From Brachyspira murdochii DSM 12563 (GTDB lineage: Bacteria; Spirochaetota; Brachyspiria; Brachyspirales; Brachyspiraceae): 64,000 nucleotides of DNA. Below, one piece after another: positions 32,617-36,235 of this stretch. The notes beneath the pieces were generated by a model. The model had not been told where the DNA came from. It searched no databases and saw nothing but the letters and a program-made list of their open reading frames with translations. The stretch is taken from contig NC_014150.1 of the NCBI RefSeq assembly GCF_000092845.1, positions 1,946,919 to 2,010,918 of the forward strand. The letters run 5' to 3'. Made by a program: the position numbers and the translations under genes. Numbering within the stretch: position 1 is the first letter of the stretch; each line of letters begins with the position of its first letter.

Positions 32617-32645
32617 TTGACAAAATTGCCGCTTCATAGTATGAT
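32617..32645 (+). promoter_or_regulatory. Sigma-70 promoter of the rpmF-plsX-rnf unit
   Basis: TTGACA (32617-32622), 17-base spacer, TATGAT (32640-32645). A leader of about 75 bases leads to rpmF with an AAGGAG site at 32712. Confidence 0.75.
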
Positions 32646-32725: not shown

Positions 32726-32920
32726 ATGGCAGTACCAAAGCATAGAAAATCGAAATCTAAAAAAAGATCAAGACAAGCCGCTAATGATAAAAGATTCTTA
32801 GGTTCATTATCAATCTGTCCTCAATGCGGAGCAGAAAGAATGCCTCATAGAATTTGTCCTGAATGCGGTTTCTATAAAGACAGAGTAGTAAAAGCTCCAA
32901 AAAGCCAAAATGCAGGCTGA
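32726..32920 (+). CDS. rpmF: Ribosomal protein L32
   Basis: A 64-residue protein with the universal start MAVPKHRKSKSKKRSRQAA. A four-cysteine zinc finger follows: ICPQCGAERMPHRICPECGF (CxxC...CxxC), then the basic tail. It is the zinc-containing form of bL32. rpmF followed by plsX is a widespread bacterial arrangement linking ribosome and membrane lipid synthesis. Confidence 0.97.
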   Translation: MAVPKHRKSKSKKRSRQAANDKRFLGSLSICPQCGAERMPHRICPECGFYKDRVVKAPKSQNAG

Positions 32921-32948: not shown

Positions 32949-33968
32949 ATGAATTTAGCCATAGATGTAGCCAGCGGAGAGAAACCTCTCGAAGAATTAG
33001 TTCTTGGAGCAGTTAATGCTTTATCAGTAAATAATGATGTTAATTTAATATTAGTGGGCAATGAGAAAAGTATTACTAAAGTTTTATCTAAAGCAAAATA
33101 TGATCATAAACGTGTAGATATAAGACATACAGATGAAATAATAGATATGAATGAAAGTCCTGCTAATGGTATAAAGCATAAAAAGAATGCTTCAGTTTTG
33201 ATGGCTGCCCGTTTGGTTAAAGATAAAGAAGCTGACGGATTTTTCTCTCCGGGCAATACAGGAGCTACACTTGCTGCTGCTCTTACAGAAATAGGTCGTT
33301 TAAAAGGGGTTATGCGTCCTCCGCTTATATCTACGCTTCCGAAATTCGGCGGCGAGTTTTGTATGCTTGATATGGGTGCTAATGTGGATTGTACTCCGGA
33401 CTATATGGCACAGTTTGCTGTTATGGGCAGGGTATTTGCAAAAAGATATTTAAAGATAGAAAATCCTAGAGTTGGTCTTCTTAATATAGGCGAAGAAGAC
33501 TCCAAAGGTAATGCAGATACTAAAAAGTTTTTTGAACGCCTTCAGAAAATGAAAAAAATAAACTTTATAGGTAATGTTGAACCTAATGATATGCTCAAGT
33601 CTGATTGTGTAGATGTTGTGGTTGCTGACGGGTTTGACGGTAATATAGTTTTAAAAACTATAGAGGGTACAGCAGCTTTTGTTGTAAATATGCTAAAAGC
33701 TGAAGTTAAGAAAAATCCTGTAAGTGTTATGGGCGGGCTTATGATGAAGCCTGTATTCGGTAATTTGAAATCAAAAATGAGTTCTGATTCTTATGGTTCT
33801 GCTATACTATTAGGCTTAAACGGCGGTGCTTTTGTGGGTCATGGCAAAACAAGCGGAGTAGGTATGAAAAATGCTGTGCTTAATATGTATAGATTCTTGG
33901 ATGCTAAAATTAATGAAAAGATAGCTAAAGAACTATATGATTCCGGAGCTAAAAGAAGAATATTCTAA
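32949..33968 (+). CDS. plsX: Phosphate acyltransferase
   Basis: 339 residues, normal length. It shows MNLAIDVASGEKPLEELVLG (variant of the AxDxMGGD start, where the glycine-rich GGD has become ASGEK), GFFSPGNTGATLAAALTEIG, RLKGVMRPPLISTLPKFGG, LLNIGEEDSKGNADTKKFF and VADGFDGNIVLKTIEGTA, all characteristic of PlsX. The enzyme makes acyl-phosphate from acyl-ACP for phospholipid synthesis at the membrane. It follows rpmF by 28 bases. Confidence 0.94.
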   Translation: MNLAIDVASGEKPLEELVLGAVNALSVNNDVNLILVGNEKSITKVLSKAKYDHKRVDIRHTDEIIDMNESPANGIKHKKNASVLMAARLVKDKEADGFFSPGNTGATLAAALTEIGRLKGVMRPPLISTLPKFGGEFCMLDMGANVDCTPDYMAQFAVMGRVFAKRYLKIENPRVGLLNIGEEDSKGNADTKKFFERLQKMKKINFIGNVEPNDMLKSDCVDVVVADGFDGNIVLKTIEGTAAFVVNMLKAEVKKNPVSVMGGLMMKPVFGNLKSKMSSDSYGSAILLGLNGGAFVGHGKTSGVGMKNAVLNMYRFLDAKINEKIAKELYDSGAKRRIF

Positions 33969-34010: not shown

Positions 34011-34865
34011 ATGGTATACATTAAATCTTGTAAAAGCATTTATAAAAAAGAGCAAACCAATATGGCTGCTTCTGATTTAGCTTTGATTCCCATTAATGAG
34101 GTTATAAAAGATATAGATGTTTCTGAAATAGATGCTATTATTTGTGCCACTGTTACTAAAGATTATGTTTATCCTTCTACTGCATGTATATTAGCAGGAA
34201 AAATTAAGGCTTCTAATGCTTTTTGCTTTGATATAGAAAGTGATTTTACCGGATTTTTATCAGCATTGAGATTAGCTTATGCTTTTGTAAAGAGTAATAG
34301 ATATAAAAATATTTTGGTTGCAGCAGTTGAATCATTCTATATATGTGATGATAAAGATAGATTTGATGATGCAAGTGTAGCTGTTCTAGTTACCAATGAA
34401 AAGTCTGATATACAAATAGATTTTATAGATTCTGTAACTGACGGAAGTGCTTTAGAAAACTGCTATATACCTATGGGCGGAACTGCTAAGCCTTATACTA
34501 AAGAAGGTGTATTAAATAAAGAACACTTCATATCTATAAAAGACAGCAGCATCTTTGAAGAAGAGGCAAAAAAAGCTGCTTTATATGTTAAAGATGTTTT
34601 ATCTTCTAATAATATAGAGCCTAACTATTATATACCTTCCTACTCAAGTAAAGCTGCTTATGATAATTTTGTTAATGCTCTATCAGTAGATAAGGATATA
34701 GTATATTCAAAAATGGAAGATGCCCATTCTTCTTTAAGTGCTTCTTCTGGTGTGGCATTGTCTATGGCTTTGGAAGATGGGTTTATTAAAAAAAATAGTA
34801 AGGTAGCTGTATGCGGTTACGGAAGCGGTTATACCAAATCTGTAGCTGTTATTTCTATAAATTAA
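34011..34865 (+). CDS. FabH-like (KAS III) protein lacking catalytic residues
   Basis: A 284-residue thiolase-fold protein in the position where fabH normally follows plsX. FabH's AACxGF active-site motif reads DIESDFTGFLSAL here, so the catalytic Cys is Phe. The HQAN motif region reads YYIPSYSSKAAYDNF (His to Ser), and GNTSAAS reads AHSSLSASSG (Asn to Ser). The glycine loop at the end, CGYGSGYTKSVAV, remains. It is about 35 residues shorter than usual. It cannot catalyse the standard Cys-His-Asn condensation and may be a structural or regulatory paralogue. Confidence 0.75.
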   Translation: MVYIKSCKSIYKKEQTNMAASDLALIPINEVIKDIDVSEIDAIICATVTKDYVYPSTACILAGKIKASNAFCFDIESDFTGFLSALRLAYAFVKSNRYKNILVAAVESFYICDDKDRFDDASVAVLVTNEKSDIQIDFIDSVTDGSALENCYIPMGGTAKPYTKEGVLNKEHFISIKDSSIFEEEAKKAALYVKDVLSSNNIEPNYYIPSYSSKAAYDNFVNALSVDKDIVYSKMEDAHSSLSASSGVALSMALEDGFIKKNSKVAVCGYGSGYTKSVAVISIN

Positions 34866-34927: not shown

Positions 34928-36235
34928 ATGAAATTAGGTAAATTTCGTTTTGGCGGAGTACATCCAAATGATAGTAAAGATACTGCCGAAATCTCTTCAT
35001 CTGCTCTTTCTGTATTACCTAAAACTGTTTTAATATCTATGGCTCAGCATATAGGTGCTCCTGCTAAAATGTTAAAAAATAAAGGTGATAAAATAAACAG
35101 AGGTGAGCTTATAGGCGAGGCAGGAGGTTATGTTTCCGGTAATGTTCATTCCTCTGTTACTGGAACTGTTGCTTCTGTAGATATAGCTCCTAATCCTTTG
35201 GGACGCGGTGCTAATGCTTTACTTATTAATGCTGACAGTGCTGCTGACAATTTGGCATACTATGAAAACTCAAATTATATGTCATTATCAGCAGAAGAAA
35301 TGTCTAAAAAGATACAGGCGGCTGGTATAGTTGGTATGGGAGGTGCTACTTTCCCTACTAATGTTAAAGTTGATGGTGCTGCTAAGGGCGGCTGTGATAC
35401 TTTGGTTATCAATGGTGTAGAATGCGAACCTTATATTACAAGCGACTATAGGCTTATGATAGAATATACCCAAGATTTATTTAAGGGTATTGAAATATTA
35501 AGAAAAATTATTCCTTCTGTAAAAAGAACTGTTATTGGTATAGAAAATAACAAGCCTAAAGCTATAGAAGAAATGACAAAAATAGGAAAAGAGTATAATG
35601 TTGAGGTTATGCCTTTAAGACTTCGCTATCCTCAAGGTGCTGAAAAAATGCTTATTGATGCTACTACTGGAAGAGTTGTCCCAGTGAGCAAACTTCCTAT
35701 GGATGTTGGAGTTTTAGTTGTTAATGTGGCTACTCTTTACGCTATATATGAGGCTGTTGCTAAGGATAAGCCTCTTATAGAAAGACTTGTTACTGTTTCC
35801 GGAGATGCTATAAAAGAACATAAAAATGTTTGGCTTCCTCTTGGTACTCCTATTTCACATGTTGTAGAAGAGTGCGGCGGTATTACTGCTGAAAATGTTC
35901 TTATACTCGCAGGCGGTCCTATGATGGGTACAAGCGTTCCTAATACAGATCAATGTGTTAATAAAGGTACTAACTCTCTTCTTTTCTTGGATAAAGATAA
36001 AATGCCTAAAGAGGTAGAATATCCTTGTATTAAATGCGGAAGATGCGGAAATGCCTGTCCTTTGAGATTATCTCCTACTGAAATCGCACACACTGCTAAA
36101 GCTAAAATTAAAGATAAATTAAATGATTTGGATATAGCAACTTGTTTTGAATGCGGAAGCTGTTCATACATATGTCCTTCAAAGATTCCTTTGGTGCAGT
36201 GGATTAGATTTGGTAAAGATTTGTTAAGAAGATAA
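34928..36235 (+). CDS. rnfC: Ion-translocating ferredoxin:NAD oxidoreductase subunit C
   Basis: A 435-residue protein. It opens with GKFRFGGVHPND and has the RnfC N-terminal domain, then GIVGMGGATFPTNVKV, NGVECEPYITSDYRLM (NADH/FMN domain), and two [4Fe-4S] motifs near the C-terminus: CIKCGRCGNACPLRLSP and CFECGSCSYICPSKIPL. RnfC is the peripheral subunit that exchanges electrons with NADH in the Na+- or H+-pumping Rnf complex. rnfD starts 16 bases downstream. Confidence 0.96.
   Translation: MKLGKFRFGGVHPNDSKDTAEISSSALSVLPKTVLISMAQHIGAPAKMLKNKGDKINRGELIGEAGGYVSGNVHSSVTGTVASVDIAPNPLGRGANALLINADSAADNLAYYENSNYMSLSAEEMSKKIQAAGIVGMGGATFPTNVKVDGAAKGGCDTLVINGVECEPYITSDYRLMIEYTQDLFKGIEILRKIIPSVKRTVIGIENNKPKAIEEMTKIGKEYNVEVMPLRLRYPQGAEKMLIDATTGRVVPVSKLPMDVGVLVVNVATLYAIYEAVAKDKPLIERLVTVSGDAIKEHKNVWLPLGTPISHVVEECGGITAENVLILAGGPMMGTSVPNTDQCVNKGTNSLLFLDKDKMPKEVEYPCIKCGRCGNACPLRLSPTEIAHTAKAKIKDKLNDLDIATCFECGSCSYICPSKIPLVQWIRFGKDLLRR

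Follow-up and report, generated by a model that had tools for sequence, protein, structure and literature searches.

A conserved FabH-derived pseudoenzyme encoded behind rpmF and plsX in Brachyspiraceae

RESULTS

Organization of the locus

In the window (the whole 64,000-nucleotide stretch of Brachyspira murdochii DSM 12563 DNA that was analysed), the genes rpmF, plsX, a FabH-like gene and rnfC follow each other on the + strand (Table 1); a place after rpmF and plsX had been assigned to the FabH-like gene in an earlier note, made from the sequence alone, and this gene order was borne out. FabH, a drug target, initiates the synthesis of fatty acids in bacteria. The promoter-like site found upstream of rpmF is the best candidate for the promoter of the operon, as judged by its agreement with the consensus, and no terminator-like site was seen between the genes from this site to rnfC. 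Therefore, rpmF, plsX, the FabH-like gene and rnfC are probably co-transcribed. The ATG codon of the FabH-like gene is preceded, at a distance of 8 nt, by the ribosome-binding site AAAGGA. An overlooked N-terminus 5' of this codon was ruled out, as the frame is open for just 4 codons between the nearest stop and the ATG (a 288-residue open frame), and the residues MVY at the start are invariant.

Table 1. Positions in the window of the FabH-derived gene, its neighbors and the features discussed in the text
Feature	Position	Strand	Remarks
Promoter-like site TTGACA-17-TATGAT, 5' of rpmF	32617..32645	+	11/12 consensus matches; consensus only
rpmF (ribosomal protein bL32)	32726..32920	+	Pfam Ribosomal_L32p 5.8e-20
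plsX (acyl-ACP:phosphate acyltransferase), ordinary member of the family	32949..33968	+	NCBIfam TIGR00182, 318 bits vs cut-off 243; solved PlsX homologues
FabH-derived gene without the catalytic triad	34011..34865	+	284 aa, ATG start
Deletion junction	34050..34055	+	codons 14-15; E. coli FabH 16-45 gone, including CoA-clamp W32, R36, T37; global profile alignment
Across-dimer loop TKDYVYPSTAC	34155..34187	+	codons 49-59; T49, D51, Y52, Y54, P55 invariant
Strand before the old nucleophile, NAFCFDIESDFTGF	34215..34256	+	codons 69-82; D78-F79 for Ala111-Cys112; D78, F79, G81, F82 invariant
Conserved segment of low AlphaFold2 confidence, CYIPMGGTAKPYTKEGVLNKEHFISIK, candidate for partner binding	34461..34541	+	codons 151-177; block conservation 0.79-0.92, pLDDT 58-71
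Ser for catalytic His244	34638..34640	+	codon 210
Ser for catalytic Asn274	34728..34730	+	codon 240
rnfC, next gene, link not constant	34928..36235	+	RnfC-like frame, named from sequence

Loss of the catalytic triad and of the substrate-binding sites

The 284-aa protein contains the Pfam domains ACP_syn_III and ACP_syn_III_C, both above the cut-off, and the solved structures closest to it are all FabHs. The NCBIfam FabH models TIGR00747 and NF006829 recognized it below their cut-offs, with 113 and 122 bits against 292 and 249, respectively, i.e. at half or less of the required scores; NF040746 (GrdC) was not among its NCBIfam matches. When the protein was aligned by profile with the FabHs of spirochaetes and of E. 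coli (probability 100%), Phe79 fell on the position of Cys112, Ser210 on that of His244 and Ser240 on that of Asn274. The E. coli reference sequence was checked by means of landmark residues. These columns are occupied by Phe in 16/16, Ser in 16/16 and Ser in 15/16 sequences of the dead-family alignment, respectively, and by Cys, His and Asn without exception in 26 intact FabHs. Moreover, Phe and the Ser at the His position are common to 28/28 Brachyspiraceae genomes. Replacement of all three catalytic residues (Cys to Phe, His to Ser, Asn to Ser), as postulated in the earlier note, was thus borne out by the profile alignment, and a Cys residue in the active site, which was looked for as the observation that would speak against the claim, is absent from it, Phe79 being aligned on Cys112.

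The same note had estimated the protein to be about 35 residues short, and it is indeed shorter by 38-40 aa than the intact FabHs of its own genome (322 and 324 aa). On the basis of the alignment, the most plausible reading is that some 30 residues were lost internally, behind residue 14 (residues 16-45 of E. coli FabH), together with a 5-residue deletion (152-156). A simple N-terminal truncation is disfavoured by the global profile alignment, in which the gap falls after residue 14, and the AlphaFold2 model retains the first strand at residues 3-12; that the segment is missing is more certain than its placement near the N-terminus. Residues of the ACP-docking patch, K214/R249/K256/K257, are E/A/N/A in the window protein, and in the dead family K214 is replaced by E, R249 by N, A or E, K256 by N or D, and K257 by A. 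Changes in the pocket introduce bulkier residues (A111 to D, C112 to F, S276 to L), and M207, G209, A246, N247, I250, S276 and A111, which belong to the tunnel and the pocket, are all replaced, several of them by larger residues. Near-invariant positions of intact FabHs can be divided, according to established knowledge of FabH, into functional ones (catalytic, CoA- or ACP-binding) and others. In the former group 1 position was kept and 15 were lost (15/16), and in the latter 15 were kept and 19 lost (19/34; Fisher p 0.009). With both the CoA clamp and the basic patch for ACP lost, binding of acyl-CoA or ACP by the window protein appears unlikely.

Retained segments and the predicted fold

The loop carrying Phe87 of FabH reaches across the dimer into the pocket of the partner subunit. 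Both this loop (residues 49-59) and the strand preceding the catalytic Cys (residues 69-75) are retained in the window protein, with several positions identical in 16/16 sequences, and Tyr54 stands where FabH has Phe87. AlphaFold2, supplied with the window protein and 18 relatives, predicted a confident FabH fold (pLDDT 84.8, pTM 0.87), and the best PDB matches of the model are FabHs (TMq 0.75-0.86). Conservation correlated negatively with the confidence of the model (Spearman -0.54, p 0.002, 29 blocks), being high where the confidence was low. Blocks which are conserved and yet predicted with low confidence, e.g. 41-60, 71-80 and 151-170, correspond to the across-dimer loop, to the strand with the elbow of the former nucleophile, and to the segment CYIPMGGTAKPYTKEGV...KEHFISIK. 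Such a combination of conservation and low single-chain confidence would be expected of a surface that becomes ordered on binding of a partner. Fifteen invariant residues, including D78, F79, K177, Y192 and S210, are specific to the family, and are rare or absent in intact FabHs.

Conservation of the gene and selection

A complete gene was present in 28 Brachyspiraceae genomes, 25 of the genus of the window (70-100% identity) and 3 of two other genera (46-60%), and a 29th genome contains only a fragment of it at a contig edge. The frame is open, free of stops and frameshifts, and located directly behind rpmF-plsX in 28/28 of the complete-gene genomes; decay of the frame in relatives, which would have contradicted the earlier view that it is kept, was looked for and found in none of them. 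The rnfC gene lies downstream in 26/28 genomes. In genomes G021 and G027 it is no longer the next gene, and the order rpmF-plsX-dead fabH is kept (L065, L062). In the three genomes of other genera, the plsX stop codon and the start of the dead fabH share 1 nt. Comparison of dN/dS across Brachyspira, suggested in the earlier note, gave a median of about 0.10 for the dead gene, which indicates strong purifying selection (medians: dead FabH 0.099, plsX 0.077, rnfC 0.109, intact fabH 0.056).

A profile search of 149 sampled Spirochaetota genomes found the dead family in Brachyspiraceae only; its members scored at least 422 bits (257 for the fragment), and the next matches, mostly FabHs of approximately normal length, at most 178 bits. 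One contig scan yielded no relatives beyond Brachyspira and its close relatives, the profile search having covered Spirochaetota only, and none were detected in the viral contigs searched.

Intact FabHs and the history of the gene

The genome of the window encodes two full-length FabHs with intact triads, both above the NCBIfam cut-offs (C1:1874902-1875867 and C1:1384209-1385171). They are about 51% identical to each other, and both lie more than 100 kb from the dead copy, not adjoining it. This genome search substantiates the earlier suggestion that fabH is located elsewhere, and contradicts its alternative, according to which fabH would be absent or growth salvage-dependent. All examined genomes of the genus contain FabH of the C1:1874902 type, that of the C1:1384209 type was not found in some genomes (e.g. 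G021), and an unlinked FabH accompanies the dead gene in every genome read that carries it.

FabH-like GrdC and PlsX-like GrdD form component C of glycine reductase. Their genes adjoin each other in the genome of the window at C1:3095655-3098440 (L067:4656-7441; GrdC, NF040746, 769 bits; GrdD, NF040747, 562 bits). The genome paper of B. pilosicoli names no fabH among its fatty-acid genes, and lists fabH and plsX in the grd cluster (PMC2897892); the latter two are probably the genes of glycine reductase component C.

A separate observation concerns genome G007, a single contig which groups with B. pilosicoli. A frameshift within an A-rich run interrupts its plsX (L028:466-1483), and this may be a sequencing error; plsX is intact in the close relatives of G007. 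The second intact-type FabH of the same genome (C1:1384209 type) also has a frame break (L054:4968-5943), which suggests assembly or sequencing errors, or a real loss.

Two FabHs occur in the sister family in the order: an intact copy linked to plsX, and an unlinked copy that clusters with the working FabHs of Brachyspiraceae (99/97). Adjacency of plsX and fabH, with close or overlapping frames, occurs also with intact FabHs in other spirochaetes, and is ancestral in this phylum. The dead clade is solid (100/100) and has a long stem (1.21); the AU tests reject neither of the two FabHs of the sister family, plsX-linked or unlinked, as its origin (p 0.12 and 0.09). In the simplest history, not proved by the tree, the unlinked copy would have taken over and been duplicated, and the plsX-linked copy would have lost catalysis yet been retained.

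DISCUSSION

As judged from its sequence, the product of the FabH-like gene is a functional pseudoenzyme derived from FabH, in which the FabH fold is kept and initiation of fatty-acid synthesis is impossible. The proposal made in the earlier note, that this dead enzyme is conserved and has a structural or regulatory function, gains support from purifying selection, intact frames and the Cys-less site. By analogy with PqsB and LstB, the protein is most likely a non-catalytic subunit which would pair with either an intact FabH or PlsX.

Our preferred reading, held with somewhat less than even confidence, would involve a heterodimer of the pseudoenzyme and the universal intact FabH of the C1:1874902 type, similar to PqsB-PqsC and LstB-LstA. 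The partner would be bound through the face that FabH uses to dimerise, D78-F79 might plug the dead subunit's own half, and the invariant loop 49-59, with Tyr54 in place of Phe87, could line and tune the acyl pocket of the active partner. The dose of the dead subunit would be linked to phospholipid synthesis through its expression from the rpmF-plsX operon. However, the dimer face, as far as it is retained, fits a homodimer equally well, the dead gene adjoins plsX rather than the proposed partner, unlike in pqsBC and lstAB, and FabH is so widespread that its co-occurrence with the dead gene says little. Likewise, since the adjacency of plsX and fabH is ancestral, it does not by itself demonstrate a functional link within the operon. 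A more specific proposal, that the dead FabH of the plsX operon is a regulatory subunit coupling fatty-acid initiation by the intact FabH with phospholipid synthesis by PlsX, is possible but should be regarded as doubtful.

Partnership with the adjacent PlsX, in which the FabH-derived subunit would scaffold or regulate acyl-phosphate formation in a manner resembling GrdC/GrdD, is rather unlikely, and still deserves attention in view of the gene order. The pair of plsX and dead fabH is preserved in all 28 genomes, even in the two where rnfC no longer follows, the two frames overlap in the three genomes outside the genus, and adjacency of the real GrdC and GrdD genes means that pairing of a FabH-like with a PlsX-like protein exists in the cell. 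Nevertheless, intact FabHs of other spirochaetes show the same adjacency, which may thus be merely inherited; PlsX of the window looks ordinary, and GrdC is a distant relative of FabH.

A further idea is that the protein forms a homodimer and serves as a regulator or scaffold, another protein (e.g. FabF, FabD or a membrane protein) being bound by its loops 49-59 and 151-177. Conservation of these loops and, apparently, of the dimer face, and the fact that besides PlsX no known partner adjoins, are in accordance with this idea; no particular partner is positively supported, however, and we consider it unlikely. A new enzyme, performing other chemistry at or near the old pocket with D78, S210, H172, K177, C59 or Y192 as candidate residues, might account for the 15 family-specific invariant residues, but the side chains of the pocket are larger and the contacts with CoA and ACP gone, and C59 and H172 are common also in intact FabHs, hence they are not new catalytic residues; this explanation is very improbable. 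At least as improbable is a sensor which would respond to acyl-CoA, malonyl-CoA or acyl-ACP without turnover, as suggested by FabH ancestry and the operon position: W32, R36 and T37 are deleted, the tunnel is changed at M207/G209/A246/N247/I250, and the basic ACP patch is lost. Finally, a pseudogene in which erosion is still to come, compatible with the loss of every catalytic residue, is ruled out by a dN/dS of about 0.1 in the genus and by 28 genomes, from three genera, in which the frame has neither stop nor frameshift; a ribosome-binding site is present as well.

In the literature searched, we found no paper on the dead FabH protein and no account of a conserved inactive FabH in a housekeeping rpmF-plsX operon. 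The pseudoenzyme described here is conserved, belongs with the dead KAS III subunits, and is encoded at an unusual location. If it were a regulatory subunit, it would provide a means of tuning fatty-acid initiation, and if the coupling of the two pathways were true, it would place a dead KAS III in primary, and not secondary, lipid metabolism. The plsX-linked gene in Brachyspira should not be annotated as fabH, the true FabHs being encoded elsewhere.

With FabH (KAS III) itself, the window protein shares the fold, domain order, dimer-face loop and operon position (rpmF-plsX-fabH), and differs from it in the absence of the triad, deletion of the CoA clamp and loss of the ACP patch. Its similarity to the GrdC/GrdD system consists in a FabH-like protein being encoded beside a PlsX-like one, whereas GrdC has more than 500 aa, is only distantly related to FabH and takes part in another reaction. 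One working model is PqsB, which lacks the triad and associates with PqsC in the manner of the FabH dimer (residues 1-279 shown; PMC4807248). PqsB and the window protein are both FabH-fold proteins of comparable size in which all three catalytic residues are missing, and PqsB supports an active partner. PqsB is, in contrast, shortened in its C-terminal half and acts in a signal-molecule (Pseudomonas quinolone) pathway, while the window protein is shortened near the N-terminus and encoded in a housekeeping fatty-acid/phospholipid operon. In the lipstatin synthase, LstA and LstB cannot form stable homodimers, and LstAB is formed instead (PMC12141560). LstB resembles the window protein as a KAS III-like subunit predicted to heterodimerise via the FabH interface (PMC12141560), and is distinguished by Glu60, needed for activity, by clustering with LstA and by its role in secondary metabolism. 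Adjacency to the gene of an active partner, characteristic of the PqsB/LstB kind, is not seen at the locus, whereas another of its traits, a FabH fold devoid of the triad and maintained under selection, is present in the window protein.
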